Shown here piece after piece: positions 4,417 to 22,322 of a stretch of 64,000 nucleotides of DNA (positions within the stretch are counted from its first letter, which is position 1; each line of letters starts with the position of its first letter). The stretch spans positions 45,504 through 109,503 of the forward strand of contig CADCJX010000005.1 of assembly GCA_902801885.1 (NCBI GenBank), read 5' to 3'. The translations under genes were made by a program, and so were the position numbers. The notes under the pieces were generated by a model. The model was not told the origin of the DNA and did not search any database. It worked only from the letters and a program-made list of their open reading frames with translations. Origin of the DNA: an uncultured Bacteroidia bacterium. Lineage in GTDB: Bacteria > Bacteroidota > Bacteroidia > Bacteroidales > UBA932.

Positions 4417-5529
4417 ATGACAGCGGACGGTAAAATAAAGGTTGGGATCGTCGGAGCTGCCGGCTACACTGCCGGGGAGCTACTGAGGATCCTCGTGAAC
4501 CACCCTTGCGTGGAGATCCTCTTCGCGCAGAGCGGCAGCCATGCCGGCGAACCTGTCTGGTCAGCCCACGCCGACCTCCTCGGTGAAACGGATTTACGGT
4601 TTATTCCTTCGGTTCTTCCTGGTGAGGGCAAATCGGCCAATGAGGACAATGCCACCCTCGGCACTAGAGGGGGGACCGGAGCGGAACTTAGTGGAGCGAG
4701 CGGTGGGGCCTCGCGGAGCGAGGCGTCCGAATGGCCGATATTGCCCTCACTGGATGAAATAGACGTGTTATTTCTTTGCTCAGGTCATGGAAAGGCGAAG
4801 CCGTTCGTGGCGTCGCTGCCGGAAAGCTACAAGGGCGCAATCATCGACCTGGGCAACGACTACCGTCTTGCAGCCGATGCCGAAGACTTCGTCTACGGCC
4901 TTCCCGAGGCCTTCCGTGACAAGATCAAAGGCGCCCGGCATATTGCCAACCCAGGCTGCTTTGCCACTTCGATCCAGCTGGCCCTCCTGCCGATGGCTAA
5001 GGCGGACCTCCTCCCCGAAATCCACGTTACAGGCATCACCGGATCGACCGGGGCCGGCCAGGCTCCTTCCGAGACAACACATTTCAGTTGGAGGACCGAC
5101 AACCTGTCAGTCTACAAGGCATTCACCCACCAGCATCTGGGCGAAATCAACGAGACTCTCCACGCCCTGGCTCCAAACTATGCCGGGCAGATGAATTTCG
5201 TCCCGGTCCGGGGCGACTTCGCCAGGGGAATCCTTGCCTCGGTGTACTTCGACTGCGACCTTGGCGAAGAGGAGGCGGTGGCTCTTTACAAGGACTACTA
5301 CAAGGACGAGCCGTTCGTACACGTGATCGACTCCAATCCTGACGTCAAGATGGTCGTCAACACCAACAAATGCGTGTTGAACGTCCGTAAACATGGCGGG
5401 AAACTCCACGTTATCAGCGTGATAGACAATCTGGTAAAGGGGGCTTCCGGCCAGGCTGTCCAGAACATGAACCTTATTTTCGGCCTGCCTGAAGACGCTG
5501 GCCTGCACCTGAAAGCAACAAGATTCTGA
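4417..5529 (+). CDS. argC: N-acyl-gamma-glutamyl-phosphate reductase with an in-frame repeat insertion
   Basis: ArgC reduces N-acylglutamyl phosphate to the semialdehyde using NADPH. The nucleotide-binding motif GIVGAAGYTAGELL opens the protein and the catalytic cysteine is Cys181 in NPGCFAT. At 370 residues it is longer than the usual 320-345. The excess is a low-complexity segment at residues 69-111 containing EDNATLGTRGGTGAE and RSEASE, placed just before EIDVLFLCSGHG. This segment is encoded by a repeat element that recurs in argD (see the repeat feature). The fold on both sides of it is intact, so the enzyme is probably active. The stop overlaps the argD start by one base. Whether the substrate is acetylated or succinylated follows from the pathway, not from this gene. 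Confidence 0.94.
   Translation: MTADGKIKVGIVGAAGYTAGELLRILVNHPCVEILFAQSGSHAGEPVWSAHADLLGETDLRFIPSVLPGEGKSANEDNATLGTRGGTGAELSGASGGASRSEASEWPILPSLDEIDVLFLCSGHGKAKPFVASLPESYKGAIIDLGNDYRLAADAEDFVYGLPEAFRDKIKGARHIANPGCFATSIQLALLPMAKADLLPEIHVTGITGSTGAGQAPSETTHFSWRTDNLSVYKAFTHQHLGEINETLHALAPNYAGQMNFVPVRGDFARGILASVYFDCDLGEEEAVALYKDYYKDEPFVHVIDSNPDVKMVVNTNKCVLNVRKHGGKLHVISVIDNLVKGASGQAVQNMNLIFGLPEDAGLHLKATRF
4622..4750 (+). repeat. In-frame foldback repeat element, argC copy
   Basis: The 91-nt core at 4641-4731 (TGAGGACAATG ... GCGTCCGAA) matches the core in argD at 85 of 91 positions, with the first 48 bases identical. It is bracketed by inverted arms at 4622-4639 (GTGAGGGCAAATCGGCCA) and 4732-4750, which pair over 18 of 19 positions. 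The arms differ completely from those in argD. Inside the core, GCCTCGC-GGA-GCGAGGC forms a perfect hairpin and CCCTC/GAGGG a second one. The whole unit is a long branched foldback that is read through without a stop. Confidence 0.85.
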
Positions 5530-6788
5530 TGAAACTTTTCGACGTATACAACCTGTTTGACGTGACCCCGGTGAAGGGTCTCGGCACCCGTGTCTGGGAC
5601 GACAAGGGCACTGAATATCTCGACCTCTATGGTGGCCACGCCGTAATCTCCGTCGGCCATTGCCATCCGAAGTACGTATCGGCCGTAACCGACCAGCTTG
5701 GCAAACTGGTATTCTATTCCAACAGCGTCCGCAACCCACTCCAAGAGGAACTTGCGGAGAAAATAGGGGAACTGTCCGGCTACCAGGACTATTCCATCTT
5801 CCTATGCAATTCCGGGGCTGAGGCCAATGAGAATGCCTTGAAGCTGGCTTCTTTCCACACCGGGGAGAGACGTGTGCTTGCTTTCAAGGGTGCTTTCCAT
5901 GGCCGTACATCAGGGGCTGTCGCCGTCACCGACAATCCCAGGATCAGGGCTCCGTTCAACAGCTGGCATGAGGTTACCTTCGTTGGGATGAACGACATCG
6001 AGTCCGTAAGGGATGAACTTTCCAAAGGGGACATCGCTGCCGTGATCATCGAGGGTATCCAGGGTGTCGGGGGAATAATCATCCCTGATGACAACTTCAT
6101 GCGTGAGCTCAGGGTGGCCACCGAAGACGCAGGAGTCCCGCTGATCCTTGACGAAGTCCAGAGCGGATATGGCCGTACGGGCAAGTTCTTCGCCCATCAG
6201 TGGGCCGGGATCAAACCGGACCTCATCACGATGGCGAAGGGCATGGCCGGAGGATTCCCGATCGGTGGTGTACTGATTTCGCCAGAGTTCGAACCTGTCA
6301 AAGGCATGCTGGGCACGACTTTCGGCGGCAACCATCTCGCAATGGCCGCTGCAATAGCCGTTGCCGACATCATCAAGGACGAAGACCTCGTCTCCAACGC
6401 CCTCACTGTCGGTACTTACCTCAAGACCCGCCTCCAGGCATTGTCAGATGGCGCCCCGGCAAGTGAGGACAATGCCACCCTCGGCACTAGAGGGGGGACC
6501 GGAGCGGAACGAAGTGAAGCGAGCGGTGGGGCCGAGCGCAGCGAGGCGTCCGAACTGCCGGGGGCACCATCTGACCATCAACCGATGATCAAGGAGGTCC
6601 GGGGAAGGGGACTGATGACAGGAGTGGAGTTCGACGGGCCGGTGGCGGAGATAAGGAAAAAGCTCCTGTTCGACAAGCATATATTCACAGGTGTATCAGG
6701 CAAGAACATGATCCGCCTTCTCGCCCCTCTCGTTCTCACCAAGGACGACGTCGACATATTCATTAAAGCATTGGAGGAAGTGTTATGA
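5529..6788 (+). CDS. argD: N-acylornithine aminotransferase with an in-frame repeat insertion
   Basis: This PLP-dependent class III aminotransferase makes N-acylornithine from the semialdehyde and glutamate. The PLP lysine is Lys237 in TMAKGMAGGFP, and the cofactor Asp lies in ILDEVQSGYGRTG at 207-219. At 419 residues it exceeds the usual 375-400. The extra segment at residues about 307-349, between RLQAL and IKEVRGRGLM, contains the same EDNATLGTRGGTGAE and RSEASE strings as argC. It overlaps argC by one base and argF' by four bases, so it lies within a translationally coupled chain. Confidence 0.94.
   Translation: MKLFDVYNLFDVTPVKGLGTRVWDDKGTEYLDLYGGHAVISVGHCHPKYVSAVTDQLGKLVFYSNSVRNPLQEELAEKIGELSGYQDYSIFLCNSGAEANENALKLASFHTGERRVLAFKGAFHGRTSGAVAVTDNPRIRAPFNSWHEVTFVGMNDIESVRDELSKGDIAAVIIEGIQGVGGIIIPDDNFMRELRVATEDAGVPLILDEVQSGYGRTGKFFAHQWAGIKPDLITMAKGMAGGFPIGGVLISPEFEPVKGMLGTTFGGNHLAMAAAIAVADIIKDEDLVSNALTVGTYLKTRLQALSDGAPASEDNATLGTRGGTGAERSEASGGAERSEASELPGAPSDHQPMIKEVRGRGLMTGVEFDGPVAEIRKKLLFDKHIFTGVSGKNMIRLLAPLVLTKDDVDIFIKALEEVL
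6441..6577 (+). repeat. In-frame foldback repeat element, argD copy
   Basis: The 91-nt core at 6464-6554 has exactly the same length and reading frame as the argC copy and differs at only six positions. Its inverted arms, 6441-6463 and 6555-6577, share GTCAGATGG.GCCCC.GGCA in opposite orientation with few mismatches. These arms do not resemble the argC arms, so the stem is specific to each locus while the core is shared. Confidence 0.85.
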
Positions 6789-16283: not shown

Positions 16284-19200
16284 ATGAGTAAAGCATTAAG
16301 ATTCTTCGCGATTCTTTCGCTGCTTCTCCCGCTCGGTCTCCGCTCGTTCGAGGCCAGCGCCCAGCAGTCGAACAGGATCACGGTGACCACTGTTGTCAAA
16401 GACAACGTGGGTGCTCTCCCCGGAGTCGGAGTCGTGGTCAAGGGAACGACCAACGGCACCATGACCGACGAGAACGGATCGGCAACGCTGAACAATGTGC
16501 CCGCCAATGGGACAATCGTAGTCTCCTATCTTGGTTACACTACGGTTGAAGTTCCGGTCAACGGCCGCGCACAGATTGCAGTGACCATGGAAGAGGACGC
16601 CCTCGCCCTTGAGGAAACGGTTGTCGTCGGATACGGCGTACAGAAGAAGGTCAACCTGACCGGTTCTGTCTCCGCTGTCGATTTCGACAAGGTAGCGACC
16701 AAGTCACGTCCTATCGTCAACGCCTCCCAGGCTCTCACCGATGCATCCCCTGGTCTGCAGGTCATGCAGAGCCGCGGTATGCCTGGTGACGAAGGTATTT
16801 CCATGAATGTACGTGGTATCGGTACCCTCAACTCTTCCGGTCCCCTCGTGCTCGTGGACGGTATTGAGCAGGGTATTAACAGTGTCAACCCTGCCGATAT
16901 TGCCAACGTTTCCATCCTTAAGGATGCTGCCTCCTGCGCCATCTACGGTAACAGGGGTGCTAACGGTGTTATCCTCGTGACCACCAAGAATGGAAGCAAG
17001 GACGGAAAGGTCTCTGTTACCTATGACGGCAACTTTGCTTATAGCGAACCCTTCAAGGTAATCCACACCATCAGCAGCTACGTGGACTACATGAACCTTT
17101 TCAATGAGGCACGTGAGAACGTCGGTGGAAGCCATATCTACTCCGATTCCAATATCGAGAAGTGGACCGCCGCTTCCAAGGATCCTAACGGAAAACTATC
17201 TTCCGATCAGGCCTATCCCAACTACGTCGCCTATCCTAACATCGATTGGTGGGATTACATTTATCTGAATAAGTGGCAGCAGACTCACACCGTATCCATC
17301 AGCGGAAAGGAAAAGAGGAGCGGCTACACCATGAGTTTCGGTTATGTTGACAACCCTGGAATCGTCAGAAATGCTGGTTTCAAGCGCTTCAACGGCCGTG
17401 TCAACCTCTACAGCGATGTGACCGACTGGCTGCGCGTCGGTGCCAGAATCAGTGGCAACCGCACCAACCACGACGTCAGTTCCATGAGCTCCGGCTTCTT
17501 CGGATCCCTCTCCACCCAGAAGATGGTTCCTGCCACCTACCCGATTTACGACGGCAAGTACGGTGCTCCTGAGTGCGACCAGGAAGACCCTCAGTCCCAC
17601 AACCCTCTTTGGGATGCCGACGGCAACGTGGGTCATGACTACAGGACAAACCTTGTCACCGACTGGTATGCCCAGGTCAAGTTCCTGAAGCACTTCACTT
17701 ACAACTTCGACTACTACTACACTGACAACCGCCGCGAGAAGAAGACCGCTCCGAAGCCCCTCGGTAAGTATTCCTTCCAGAAGGACACCTACACTACCGG
17801 TGCCGATGATCCGGCCACCCTGTACACCTACATGTACTACACCCGCAGCAACCAGTACAAGATGGTCAACACCCTGAACTACAACCAGACCTTCGGCAGC
17901 CACGATGTCGCTGCCATGCTCGGTTACGAGGAGCAGGAATATGACTATAGGGTCACTGATGTCAGCAAGCTCGGCCTTACCGACGCTGCCGTCAACGACC
18001 TTAACAATGCTGCCAACCCTTACAGCACATCTGGTTATGGAAACGGTTATACTGCCCGTTCCTGGTTCGGCCGTGTCAATTACTCCTTCAAGAACCGTTA
18101 CCTCTTCGAGGCTAACTTCCGTTATGACGGTTCTTCACGCTTCGCTCCGGATTATCGTTGGGGTTTCTTCCCTTCATTCTCTGCAGGTTGGAAGATCAGC
18201 GACGAACCTTGGTTCAATGTCAACAATATCAACAACCTGAAGCTCAGGGCATCATGGGGTAAGCTCGGCAACAACTCCGTCGGTTACTATGCATGGCAGA
18301 GTGTTTACAACGGAGCCAACTATGCAGCCGGATCCGCTTCAGCCAACGGTATCGCCATTACTTCCCTTGCCAATGACAAGATCCAGTGGGAGGAGACCGC
18401 AGTCACCAACCTCGGTCTTGACTTCGGCTTCTTCAACGGACGTCTCTCCGGTAGCATTGACGCTTACAACAAGCTCACTACAGGTATCCTTTATGCCCCT
18501 GACATCTCCTATATCTATGGTTTCATGTCGGCTCCTACCATGAACCTCGCAGAGGTTACCAACCGTGGTATCGAGTTTGAACTCGAGTGGAAGAACTCCA
18601 TCGGCAAGGACTTCAGTTACTCTGTCAAGGGTAATGTTGCTTACAACAAGAACTGGGTCTCCAAGTACAAGGGCAAACTTGAGGAAGACAAGTCAAACCT
18701 CGGACTTGTTTCAACCGGTGGCAGCAACCGTATCCTTGAGGATCACATGATCAACGAGTGGTACCTCCCCGATGTTTACAAGGGAACTGGTACCTACTTC
18801 AACGGTGGCGCCGTCGATCCCAACGGTGGTCCCAAGGACGGTATGATCCGTACCGAGCAGGATCTCCAGTGGGTCCAGGCCATGCAGGCTGCAGGTTACA
18901 GCTTCCAGCCCCAGAACAATGTTCGCAAGAACGGTCTCTGGTATGGTGAGTACATCTATGCCGATGCCAATGGTGACGGTGTCTACGGTAACGCCAATGA
19001 CGCTGAGTTCCAGGGTGTTTCAACAACACCGAAGTGGAACTTCGGCCTGAGTGCAAGCGCAAACTGGAAGGGCATTGACTTCTCTATGTTATGGGGCGGA
19101 TCCGCAGGCTTCAAGGTGTATTACCTGGCCACCTGCCAGAACTCCAGTTCACTCGTGAGCGGTTATGCTATTCCTGACAGAGTTGCCTATGATCACTATT

Positions 19201-19529
19201 TCTTCAATCCAGACAACCCCAGCGATCCGCGTACTAACTTGACTTCGAAGAACCCTCGTCTCATGGAGAACAACTCCCAGAGTACCAAGGCTTCTACCAG
19301 GTGGCTCTTCGACGACAGCTTCTTCAAGCTCCGTAACGTGACCCTCGGTTACACACTGCCTCAGAACCTGACCCGCAAGTTCTTCGTTGAGAGACTCAGG
19401 CTGTATGCTTCTGGAGAAAACCTTTGGGCTCTTACCAGTTTCCCTGGACAGGATCCTGAAATGCGTGCCGGAAATGCCGCCTACTCGACCCTGCGTCAGT
19501 ACTCATTCGGTGTCAATATAACTTTCTAA
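16284..19529 (+). CDS. SusC-type TonB-dependent outer-membrane transporter (pair 1)
   Basis: This 1081-residue SusC-family protein has a signal peptide (ending near EASAQQ), a carboxypeptidase-regulatory-like beta-sandwich at about 32-115, then the SusC plug signature EETVVVGYGVQKKVNLTGSV, and a long beta-barrel ending in the aromatic FGVNITF. With the SusD downstream it forms a lidded outer-membrane importer of oligosaccharides. The 5' 600 bases plus the leader are repeated in inverted orientation at 21732-22345 (see pseudogene). Linkage to GH43 suggests a pentose-containing glycan. Confidence 0.95.
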   Translation: MSKALRFFAILSLLLPLGLRSFEASAQQSNRITVTTVVKDNVGALPGVGVVVKGTTNGTMTDENGSATLNNVPANGTIVVSYLGYTTVEVPVNGRAQIAVTMEEDALALEETVVVGYGVQKKVNLTGSVSAVDFDKVATKSRPIVNASQALTDASPGLQVMQSRGMPGDEGISMNVRGIGTLNSSGPLVLVDGIEQGINSVNPADIANVSILKDAASCAIYGNRGANGVILVTTKNGSKDGKVSVTYDGNFAYSEPFKVIHTISSYVDYMNLFNEARENVGGSHIYSDSNIEKWTAASKDPNGKLSSDQAYPNYVAYPNIDWWDYIYLNKWQQTHTVSISGKEKRSGYTMSFGYVDNPGIVRNAGFKRFNGRVNLYSDVTDWLRVGARISGNRTNHDVSSMSSGFFGSLSTQKMVPATYPIYDGKYGAPECDQEDPQSHNPLWDADGNVGHDYRTNLVTDWYAQVKFLKHFTYNFDYYYTDNRREKKTAPKPLGKYSFQKDTYTTGADDPATLYTYMYYTRSNQYKMVNTLNYNQTFGSHDVAAMLGYEEQEYDYRVTDVSKLGLTDAAVNDLNNAANPYSTSGYGNGYTARSWFGRVNYSFKNRYLFEANFRYDGSSRFAPDYRWGFFPSFSAGWKISDEPWFNVNNINNLKLRASWGKLGNNSVGYYAWQSVYNGANYAAGSASANGIAITSLANDKIQWEETAVTNLGLDFGFFNGRLSGSIDAYNKLTTGILYAPDISYIYGFMSAPTMNLAEVTNRGIEFELEWKNSIGKDFSYSVKGNVAYNKNWVSKYKGKLEEDKSNLGLVSTGGSNRILEDHMINEWYLPDVYKGTGTYFNGGAVDPNGGPKDGMIRTEQDLQWVQAMQAAGYSFQPQNNVRKNGLWYGEYIYADANGDGVYGNANDAEFQGVSTTPKWNFGLSASANWKGIDFSMLWGGSAGFKVYYLATCQNSSSLVSGYAIPDRVAYDHYFFNPDNPSDPRTNLTSKNPRLMENNSQSTKASTRWLFDDSFFKLRNVTLGYTLPQNLTRKFFVERLRLYASGENLWALTSFPGQDPEMRAGNAAYSTLRQYSFGVNITF

Positions 19530-19541
19530 AATTGACTGATC

Positions 19542-21428
19542 ATGAAAAATATATTTAAGTATATCGCTATCGCATTATCAGCATCCGCACTGTTTGCGTC
19601 ATGTGTCAGCCTTGACACGGTTCCTTCGAACCAGTTCGCTAGCTCGAATGTGTGGAAGAGCCCTATCCTGGCTCGTGCTGCAGTGAACGGTGTGTATAAT
19701 GATCTTTACCGTGGATTCTATGATTCCGGAAACGACAACCGTGCAACGCCGCTCGACACTTATGCTTCTGTCATGGACATTGACAAGAACTGGCGTTCTT
19801 CCTGCGTCGTTACCCAGGGATCCATGACACCTTCCCATGGTACTGTTAACGACAGGTACAGGATGTACTATGAGATTGTCTACCGTGCCAACGACGTCAT
19901 CAACAACATTGACAGCGTTGAGGAGATGGATGCAAAGGAAAGGGCAAAGCTTAAAGCAGAAGCCATCTTCCTTCGCGCCTATGCCTATTACAATCTGAAC
20001 ATGTTTTTCCGCGGCGTTCCGATCTACACCGAGAATGTAGCTTCGGACGAAGCTACCAAACCTCGCAACACAGAAGCTGAGGTTTGGAATCAGATCATCA
20101 CAGACCTGACAGCCTGTATCAATGAACCCAACCTGCCCAACAAGACTACTGATGGAAAGGTTAGCAAGGGTGCAGCTTATGCCTACAGGGGAATAGTCTA
20201 CCAGAACTTGGGCGACTGGTCCAAGGCTCTTGCTGATTTCGAGGCTATCGAGAAGCTTGGTTACAAGCTTTACAGCCCGTCCAATGGTGCACCAGGCAAC
20301 GACGACTTCTTCAAGATGCTTCGTCCTGAGCAGGAAGGTTGCGATGAGCACATCTTCAAGGTGAACTGTATTACCCAGAGTGGACAGGGTAATCCCCGTT
20401 CCATCCACTATGGAAACCGTGTAACCGGTGGATCTGCTTGGAATAACTTCCTCCCGAATCCCGGTCATGTAGAGCGTTTCGAGAATGCAGATGGTTCCCA
20501 GTTTGACTGGGAGGAATACTGCCCGGGCTATAAGGACCTCACTACTGAGCAGAGGATCGTATTCTTCCTCCGCGATGGTCTTGTGGACGGTGCCAACGGC
20601 CACTATGGAGCAGGTGCAAATGCTTTCAATGAGGATCGTTACAAGAACATGGTCGCTTATTGCAACGATGGTGGTACAGCTATGCAGAACTACTATCTTG
20701 ACAAAGGCAACGAAGCTCGTATCCGCAGGGCTTACGAGAACCGTGACCCTCGTCTCGAGATGTCAATCATCACTCCTTATGCCGTTTATTACGGAAATGC
20801 CGCTGGTGTAGGTAACCATGATTGGGTCCTTCGCTGGCCTTACATCCTCGACACTGGCGAGCCTTATGATATTCGTACTGACTGCCCTTGGGCTTTCTAC
20901 TATCTCTGGAGAAAGTATGTTACTGAGGGTGACGAGTGCACCACTCGTTGGGTCTATGACCAGGATATCATTCTTATCCGTTACGCTGAGATCCTCCTCC
21001 GCAGGGCTGAGTGCCTCAACGAGCTCGGCCGTACCAGTGAAGCTGTCCAGTATGTCGACATGGTCCGTTCACGTGCCGGTCACATCAAGCTCAGTGATCC
21101 TGGCTACAAGGGAACTGATGTTTCCACTCAGGCAGGAATGCGTGAGAAAATCCGCAACGAGTTCTACGTAGAGCTTGGTGGCGAGGATTCCATGTACTTC
21201 AATGAGCTGCGTTGGGGAACCTGGTACGACCTTAAGTTCAAGAATTACACCCAGTATGCTCACGACACCAGTGTAGGCTCCAACGGTTTGATGGAGATCT
21301 GGGGCAAGATCTACTACAGCAACACTCCTGTTTCAGCTCTCGCCGGGAACAAGGGCGCATGGCCTATCCCTCAGAAGGAGCGTGAGATGAATCCTAATCT
21401 TACCCAAAATCCCGGATGGACCGACTAA
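19542..21428 (+). CDS. SusD-type glycan-binding lipoprotein (pair 1)
   Basis: This 628-residue RagB/SusD protein has a lipobox at SALFASC and the family's helical (TPR-like) N-terminal region with KAEAIFLRAYAYYNLNMFF. The C-terminus ends in IPQKEREMNPNLTQNPGW, the usual SusD terminus. It forms the surface lid on the SusC barrel encoded 12 bases upstream. Its last 45 codons are echoed in the inverted remnant at 21578-21721. Confidence 0.95.
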   Translation: MKNIFKYIAIALSASALFASCVSLDTVPSNQFASSNVWKSPILARAAVNGVYNDLYRGFYDSGNDNRATPLDTYASVMDIDKNWRSSCVVTQGSMTPSHGTVNDRYRMYYEIVYRANDVINNIDSVEEMDAKERAKLKAEAIFLRAYAYYNLNMFFRGVPIYTENVASDEATKPRNTEAEVWNQIITDLTACINEPNLPNKTTDGKVSKGAAYAYRGIVYQNLGDWSKALADFEAIEKLGYKLYSPSNGAPGNDDFFKMLRPEQEGCDEHIFKVNCITQSGQGNPRSIHYGNRVTGGSAWNNFLPNPGHVERFENADGSQFDWEEYCPGYKDLTTEQRIVFFLRDGLVDGANGHYGAGANAFNEDRYKNMVAYCNDGGTAMQNYYLDKGNEARIRRAYENRDPRLEMSIITPYAVYYGNAAGVGNHDWVLRWPYILDTGEPYDIRTDCPWAFYYLWRKYVTEGDECTTRWVYDQDIILIRYAEILLRRAECLNELGRTSEAVQYVDMVRSRAGHIKLSDPGYKGTDVSTQAGMREKIRNEFYVELGGEDSMYFNELRWGTWYDLKFKNYTQYAHDTSVGSNGLMEIWGKIYYSNTPVSALAGNKGAWPIPQKEREMNPNLTQNPGWTD

Positions 21429-21473
21429 TCCAACTATAACTACAACAATGGCCCACTTGGGCCAAGAACACCG

Positions 21474-21507
21474 AAGTAGGCTGGCCGTGAGGTCAGCCTA
21501 CTTTATA
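21474..21507 (+). terminator. Terminator after SusD 1
   Basis: A perfect 13-bp stem (AAGTAGGCTGGCC with GGTCAGCCTACTT) closes a GTGA tetraloop, followed by TTATAAT. It ends the plus-strand SusC/SusD operon. Confidence 0.8.
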
Positions 21508-21523
21508 ATATTCATAACAATGG

Positions 21524-21552
21524 AAAAAGGGTGACCGCGGAGGCCACCCTTT
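21524..21552 (-). terminator. Terminator of the minus-strand SusC/D remnant
   Basis: The stem AAAGGGTGACC/GGCCACCCTTT has one mismatch; on the minus strand it ends in a run of T. Its layout resembles the neighbouring 21474-21507 hairpin. Confidence 0.65.
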
Positions 21553-21577
21553 ATCATATTCATTATGCCGCGAGGGT

Positions 21578-22322
21578 TTAATCAACCCAACCGGGATTCT
21601 GAGTGAGTGAAGGATTCATCTCACGTTCCTTCTGAGGGATGGGCCAGACTGCGCTGTGGGTACCCATGGAGAGGTTGGAGTAGTAGATCTGTCCCCAGAT
21701 CTCCATCAGACCGTTGGAGCCGATCTGGTTGGCCCTGCTCGATACCGTCCACGAGCACGAGGGGACCGGAGGAGTTGAGGGTTCCGATACCACGGATGTT
21801 CATGGAGATAGCCTCGTCACCAGGCATACCGCGTCCCTGCATGACCTGCAGGCCAGGGGATGCATCGGTGAGGGCCTGGGAAGCGTTGACGATAGGACGG
21901 GACTTGGTTGCTACCTTGTCGAAATCGACTGCGGAGACAGAACCGGTCAGGTTGACCTTCTTCTGCACGTCGTAACCGACGACGACCGTCTCCTCAAGGG
22001 CGAGGGCGTCCTCTTCCATGGTCACAGCGATCTGGCTGCGGCCGTTGACCGGAACCTCAACCGTAGTGTAACCAAGATAGGAAAAGACGAGAGTCGCATT
22101 CCTCGGCACGTTGTTCAGCGTAGCCGATCCGTTCTCGTCGGTCATGGTGCCGTTGGTCGTTCCCTTGACCACGACTCCAACTCCTGGGAGTGCACCCACG
22201 TTGTCTTTGACAACAGTGGTCACCGTGATCCTGTCGCCTTGCTGCGCAGATGCTGTTGTCGCAAAAAATGCGAAAGGCAGTATTAACGACAGAATCGCAA
22301 AGAATCTCAATGCTTTACTCAT
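21578..22322 (-). pseudogene. Collapsed SusC-SusD fusion remnant
   Basis: On the minus strand this starts with a SusC N-terminus (signal peptide, regulatory domain and plug up to VDGIEQG, about 195 residues), nearly identical to SusC pair 1. Near 21722-21731 it jumps to the last 45 codons of SusD, ending IPQKEREMNPSLTQNPGW-VD. The SusC frame is not the SusD frame, so translation from the SusC start runs out at 21621 with nonsense residues. About 2.7 kb of SusC and 1.7 kb of SusD are missing compared with the intact pair. The signal peptide differs from that of pair 1 while the mature part is very similar. This looks like a second SusC/SusD pair that collapsed by an internal deletion. The leader upstream of 22322 is also similar to that of pair 1. 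Confidence 0.88.

Follow-up and report, generated by a model that had tools for sequence, protein, structure and literature searches.

The window analysed here is a stretch of 64,000 nucleotides from the genome of an uncultured Bacteroidales bacterium (G000; other genomes are likewise numbered G, and loci L). It contains the neighbouring arginine genes argC and argD, each of which carries in frame a copy of a short palindromic element, made up of a conserved core between two arms, as follows.

4417–5529, forward strand: argC, host gene, 370 aa, with the element encoding residues about 66–114
4613–4639, forward strand: left arm of the argC copy, pairing with 4732–4758 (complementary at 24 of 27 positions)
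4640–4731, forward strand: conserved core of the argC copy (inner ends and hairpins), used in the genome search, the core alignment and the 91-nt comparison
4732–4758, forward strand: right arm of the argC copy, pairing with its left arm
5529–6788, forward strand: argD, host gene, 419 aa, with the element encoding residues about 305–350
6443–6461, forward strand: left arm of the argD copy, pairing with 6556–6575
6462–6555, forward strand: conserved core of the argD copy, covered by the genome search and with an orthologous copy in G033
6556–6575, forward strand: right arm of the argD copy, pairing with its left arm

A sequence-only reading of this DNA had described 4641–4731 in argC and 6464–6554 in argD as a single repeat of 91 nt; the equal length, the identity at 85 of 91 bases and the common codon phase all stand, while the identical prefix is 47 nt instead of the 48 claimed. 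This pairing is the top ungapped 91-nt match between the two genes (30 shuffles of argD reach at most 45/91), and the similarity runs past it, to 104 nt at 90%. The translations bear out that EDNATLGTRGGTGAE and RSEASE are encoded in both enzymes, and the ArgC segment would give tryptic peptides such as SANEDNATLGTR. The two genes were rightly called unrelated, as ArgC and ArgD belong to separate Pfam families. Each copy is flanked by inverted repeats of its own, and as single strands both fold far more stably than dinucleotide shuffles (z = −6.2 for argC and −4.7 for argD). In the orthologous G033 copy of the argD element, the pairing of the arms is retained through a double change from G-C to A-T. 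What the sequence-only reading overlooked is the site-specific palindromic arms, the antisense and intergenic copies, and the core structure conserved across the whole family.

Elsewhere in the window, 16284–22322 holds a susC-like gene (16284–19529), a susD-like gene (19542–21428) and then an inverted, truncated susC start (21621–22322), with a 515-nt inverted repeat at 90% identity. From its sequence this looks like an invertible nutrient-receptor cassette.

The sequence-only reading had attributed the similarity of argC and argD to an inserted element and proposed searching its core against the same genome and its relatives; this search reveals a dispersed family of about 23 loci in the own genome alone. 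With 4615–4757 of the window as query, 29 places were returned at E ≤ 10 and 26 were read with their flanks; 23 loci were judged to be real copies (L001–L022 and L024, with two at L005), and the remaining matches, short and chance-like, were discarded. Fifteen of the 23 lie within long open reading frames. The host genes, named by reading their sequences and with Pfam support for the first two, would encode ArgC, ArgD, RecQ, an RsmF-like methyltransferase, a B12-binding-like protein, IspH, MiaA, cardiolipin synthase, a GH3 glycosidase, FtsK, a MATE exporter, a lipoyl acyltransferase, DnaX, DsbD and ManA. The other eight were taken as intergenic, three of them (L013, L017, L024) having a short spanning frame that was judged spurious.

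Within the genus, 78 of 300 genomes, the own one among them, have a match to the core (E ≤ 1e-5), as do 33 of the 119 better assemblies. In an order-wide sample of 393 genomes from 206 genera it matched the own genome only, and at least two further genomes of the genus within that sample had no core. A pattern scan of a species-representative collection gave at least 113 stretches; the 80 titles among the matches listed all say Bacteroidales or Bacteroidia, and a number of them name ruminants. The strict pattern had no match in viral contigs, and text searches of titles, abstract openings and passages in the literature returned no description of the element. So far, this element family has been seen only in one genus of gut and rumen Bacteroidales.

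Alignment of ArgC and ArgD with their relatives, a further check that had been proposed, shows that most of the relatives compared are without the segments, which are thus insertions at tolerant loops. Across 27 genomes (27 of the 30 loci returned were used), ArgC carries the element in two (G000, G096) and ArgD carries a same-orientation copy in three (G000, G033, G017), while ArgD also has an antisense copy in G301 and, in G423 and G176, a copy of a second subfamily. At the insertion place a loop of 5–9 residues is found in more distant genomes; measured against the short loops of these distant relatives the insertion amounts to about 45 residues, rather than the 40 or so first suggested. 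The IspH gene has a sense copy in G000, an antisense copy in G017 and no element in four other genomes, and MiaA, GH3, MATE and ManA have relatives without the element at the corresponding place. The GH3 loop holds three different copies in three genomes, and judging by such alleles some loops are struck repeatedly by the element.

Several of these loci have features of their own. Other short repeats, mostly palindromic, lie in frame in the ArgC and ArgD loops of relatives, for example one that reads ELVEGP or LVEGP and one that reads LRSAQND (L311, L312 and L328 in argC; L310 and L321 in argD). At L326 (the argD of G073), L317 and L318 little is left beyond the right arm of a copy, in frame, and these are possible deletion scars. 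In the RsmF-like gene the element, together with more than 100 nt of adjoining extra sequence, runs in opposite directions in G000 and G033 (L003 and L109), by eye as if the segment had been inverted in place. At L229 (3898–5608), neighbouring pmbA- and tldD-like genes hold one copy each, in opposite orientation and with similar arms; a composite element was considered for this locus and rejected, since it consists of two copies in the two genes.

Within genes, the element is read preferentially in two frames. The 162 unique copies divide into 95 that lie clearly within genes, 35 ambiguous ones, 20 with no spanning frame of 350 nt and 12 too close to an end. The intragenic copies are read in frame +0 in 53 cases and in frame −2 in 29, with 13 in others; frame +0 gives a peptide of the ATLGTLRGGTGAERSEAS type and frame −2 one of the SLRSAPPLA...PPLNVPRVA type, both of which read as linkers that are small, polar or rich in proline. 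The same 95 copies frequently leave other frames open (−1 in 83, +2 in 64 and −0 in 50), of which −1 would yield peptides rich in arginine that also contain aromatic residues, cysteine and tryptophan. The residues C181 of ArgC and K237 of ArgD, which we take to be catalytic positions, are invariant in the alignments, so that the element-bearing ArgC and ArgD are probably active. The two best solved homologues of ArgD have one residue or none where ArgD has 306–350, and it is plausible that both insertions lie at surface loops; structure models built from two-sequence alignments were too poor for use (mean pLDDT 38 for ArgD and 37 for ArgC).

In most copies the core is about 60–95 nt long and consists of a hairpin with a conserved ACCCTC loop, a conserved GAGGGGGG stretch that may pair with this loop, a middle hairpin, which varies in length, and a 3′ GC hairpin. 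The first of these hairpins (P2), which reads NNTGCC-ACCCTC-GGCANN, was followed through the 90 of 137 distinct copies that were aligned, and both of its outer pairs vary in a compensatory manner: the first is A-U in 45, C-G in 25, G-C in 4 and U-A in 3, and the second is C-G in 53, A-U in 24, G-C in 6 and U-G in 3. From these 90 copies RNAalifold recovered a partial structure, the 3′ part being misaligned. The ACCCTC loop is complementary to a conserved GAGGG downstream, with which it could form a pseudoknot. The motif GCGAAGC, an unusually stable DNA mini-hairpin, is repeated in the middle and 3′ hairpins and as such would fit a single-stranded DNA intermediate. No long autonomous version was found among 183 five-prime anchors in the fetched loci.

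Nearly every copy is bordered by inverted repeats of about 20–30 nt that pair within the copy and differ between copies. Arm complementarity was scored in 69 copies, taken from the own genome and from relatives, with a median of 38; setting the left arms of other copies against the same right flank gives a median of 14 (99th percentile 23, maximum 42, n = 1380). The score lies above the control 99th percentile in 65 of the 69 copies, including 21 of 24 in the own genome; those that fail are L009, L019 and L020 (own genome) and L173. Watson–Crick pairs occupy 4192 of 4491 aligned arm positions over 162 copies, a descriptive figure, as the arms were chosen for complementarity. Self-complementarity inside a single arm is weak (p = 7e-5 against its own shuffles, p = 0.054 against the far flank).

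The arms belong to sites rather than to cores. In 145 non-orthologous pairs with cores at least 95% identical, a few of which are probably orthologous, the outer arm (20 nt) has a median identity of 0.60, against baselines of 0.50 for far flanks and 0.55 for less similar pairs; orthologous pairs with equally similar cores have an arm identity of 0.93 (n = 20). One arm of the MiaA copy was searched against the own genome with up to three mismatches, and was found solely as that copy's two arms. In 80 orthologous pairs, which reuse copies and are hence non-independent, mean identity is 79.4% for the flanks, 78.7% for the left arm, 91.8% for the core and 94.5% for the first 33 nt of the core (core and arm identities ignore gap columns); non-orthologous cores have a mean identity of 89.4%. 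The arm thus drifts about as the host does, and the core drifts less. Because the core outdoes host conservation in orthologous pairs, the idea that a conserved core alone marks a recent copy was rejected, and our argument rests on the comparison of orthologous with non-orthologous arms.

The two arms of a copy also change together. Of 709 paired positions in 38 orthologous copy pairs whose arms are clearly homologous, 43 have changed on both sides and 33 on one side only; independent change of the arms would give 5.0 doubles, and 34 of the 43 replace one Watson–Crick pair with another, transversions included. A count of double changes in 75 pairs was set aside, the arms of some of those pairs being doubtfully homologous. 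Such co-variation can be due to selection for the stem or to copying of arm from arm; the wobble counts are equivocal (G-T 90 versus A-C 55 over all copies; 6 versus 9 in homologous arms).

Complementary arms that are private to each site would rarely arise by chance, and they do not, or not for the most part, come along with the core; local templating of one arm is therefore their most likely origin. We infer as the most likely reading that this is a family of non-autonomous mobile elements whose stem is rebuilt from local DNA at each insertion, a proposal that we hold with nearly as much belief as doubt. The structured core would be the inherited part. On insertion, flanking DNA would be copied back as an inverted repeat, by fold-back synthesis or template switching at a replication fork and probably with the assistance of a trans-acting enzyme, which would give each new copy a stem of local DNA; afterwards, arm-to-arm templated correction or selection for pairing would maintain the complementarity of the arms. 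In genes, only frame-keeping insertions would survive, mostly in the two frames whose peptides make flexible, polar or proline-rich linkers, and the host would tolerate the resulting loop of about 40–50 residues. A stricter form, in which only the hairpin tip is inherited, the stem is newly made by inverted copying at every insertion, template switching keeps the arms alike and essential enzymes tolerate the product, we put forward tentatively.

Comparison with element-free alleles bears directly on local templating. At L044, set against its element-free relative L220, host sequence can be aligned to the right arm, and the left arm repeats that right arm in inverted form; L022 against L128 and L188 against L139 resemble this case. 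In an anchored arm-homology test of 34 copies, with one relative each, 9 reached p ≤ 0.05 (KS p = 0.005); grouped by orthology, the 34 copies fall into 25 sets, 8 of which contain the nine positives, one of these positives (L175) having been compared with a decayed copy and not with an empty site. This test supersedes an earlier swap test, in which 9 of 43 copies had an arm homologous to the empty allele where about 4 were expected by estimate. No arm continues host homology in L238 versus L286 (flank identity 86/91%), L030 versus L209 or L228 versus L188; L238 is orthologous to L225, a positive in the anchored test, and has closer flanks, yet shows no arm–host homology. The L012 copy appears host-derived by eye when compared with L118, and is unsupported by the swap test (rank 0.39). 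The filled and empty alleles compared are too distant for the junction to be placed, and hence for a target-site duplication to be recognized. As one-armed alleles may be deletion scars, for example in the ArgD of G073, they leave copying at insertion unproven.

The arms might instead be carried along by the element, as ordinary terminal inverted repeats are, and drift fast under selection for pairing, making the family RPE-like or MITE-like; we think this somewhat unlikely. In keeping with it, the inner 9–17 nt of the arm are conserved by subfamily and shared among copies, a weak purine/pyrimidine (R/Y) consensus is found farther out, at −10 to −25, whether the copies lie in sense, in antisense or in another context, distal arm words are common to copies in some other species (by eye), compensatory change is strong, and the arms of L238, L030 and L228 lack host homology. 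The R/Y consensus, together with the arms shared by the two copies at L229, suggests that the arm is partly carried or that target sites are chosen. Carried arms sit poorly, however, with orthologous arms that diverge about as the host flanks do, and with non-orthologous copies whose cores are near-identical and whose outer arms are unrelated.

It is also conceivable, though we judge it improbable, that the core enters the loop of pre-existing hairpins, for example intrinsic terminators or palindromic repeats that arrived before it, the stem being older than the core. The intergenic copies L015, L024 and L174 do lie within hairpins bordered by A- and T-runs, and from this sequence context may double as transcription terminators; in relatives, moreover, the ArgC and ArgD loops concerned hold other palindromes. 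Yet the core-free alleles at IspH, ArgD, GH3 and L238/L286 are short loops in which no hairpin is apparent by eye. Conservation of the core above the host flank in the 80 orthologous pairs, along with the covarying pairs of P2, could be expected of a cis-regulatory RNA that the host retains for its function, as opposed to a mobile element, but the structure is found in unrelated genes as well as between genes, and in either orientation, its presence varies among close relatives, and Rfam covariance models gave no match at E ≤ 1 in 14 loci, so that we consider this explanation very improbable. To an assembly artefact we give practically no credence: although the genomes among the matches listed are metagenome-assembled, orthologous copies with equal or co-varying arms recur across genomes of different projects.

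If the stem is indeed made anew at every site, as we favour, this would point to an insertion mechanism for which we find no match among known ones, and the family would provide natural replicates for how palindromes stay complementary. Filled, empty and scarred alleles exist across many related species, and the element illustrates one route by which enzymes acquire long loops.

The likeness in concept to the Rickettsia palindromic elements (RPEs), which had been pointed out from the sequence, is upheld by in-frame insertion, a conserved peptide and unrelated host genes. In the passages of a review that treat them (PMC10969869), RPEs are short palindromic repeats without a gene of their own, found in frame in unrelated genes and each with a conserved peptide, and Rickettsia is singled out for unusually frequent in-frame palindromic insertions. 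Here a gut Bacteroidales lineage, with many genomes from ruminants, has a Rickettsia-like habit in core enzymes, ArgC, ArgD, IspH, MiaA and RecQ among them, and with 95 of 162 copies intragenic and 82 of those 95 in two frames, the element by analogy works like RPEs, a likeness of behaviour and description that does not imply membership. It differs from RPEs in having a host outside the Rickettsiales and a stem peculiar to each site; the RPEs are also said, in part of another account (PMC6649704), to lose repeat identity over time, whereas the stem here remains paired.

As a small, dispersed, hairpin-forming repeat without a gene of its own, the element also resembles REP/RAYT repeats and MITEs, although, unlike a MITE, it has no terminal inverted repeat common to all copies beyond the inner arm. 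Genes for Y1 transposases are present in 13 of 15 genomes searched. Of the 40 Y1 places, 20 were examined with 1.5 kb flanks and 19 had no core beside the Y1 gene; at L290 a copy of the element lies about 1 kb from one. On this count the Y1 transposase gained no support as mobilizer, and the Y1 loci examined tie no mobilizing enzyme to the element. One Y1 transposase gene of the own genome (L295) is flanked by hairpin repeats of its own, unrelated to the element.

Closer in their stems are the palindromes of nematomorph mitochondria, for which the relevant passages of PMC6649704 describe site-specific inverted repeats in coding sequence and discuss template switching as a possible cause; those belong to an organelle genome, and a shared mobile core does not figure in that part of their description. 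Mitochondrial GC clusters and double-hairpin elements, in the portion of PMC2800124 that concerns them, are dispersed hairpins in and between genes, as the present element is, and are reported to be left in fungal transcripts. In the double-hairpin elements of sponges, according to the same portion, the stems are conserved and the loops differ slightly, whereas in the element described here it is the stem that varies and the tip that is conserved.
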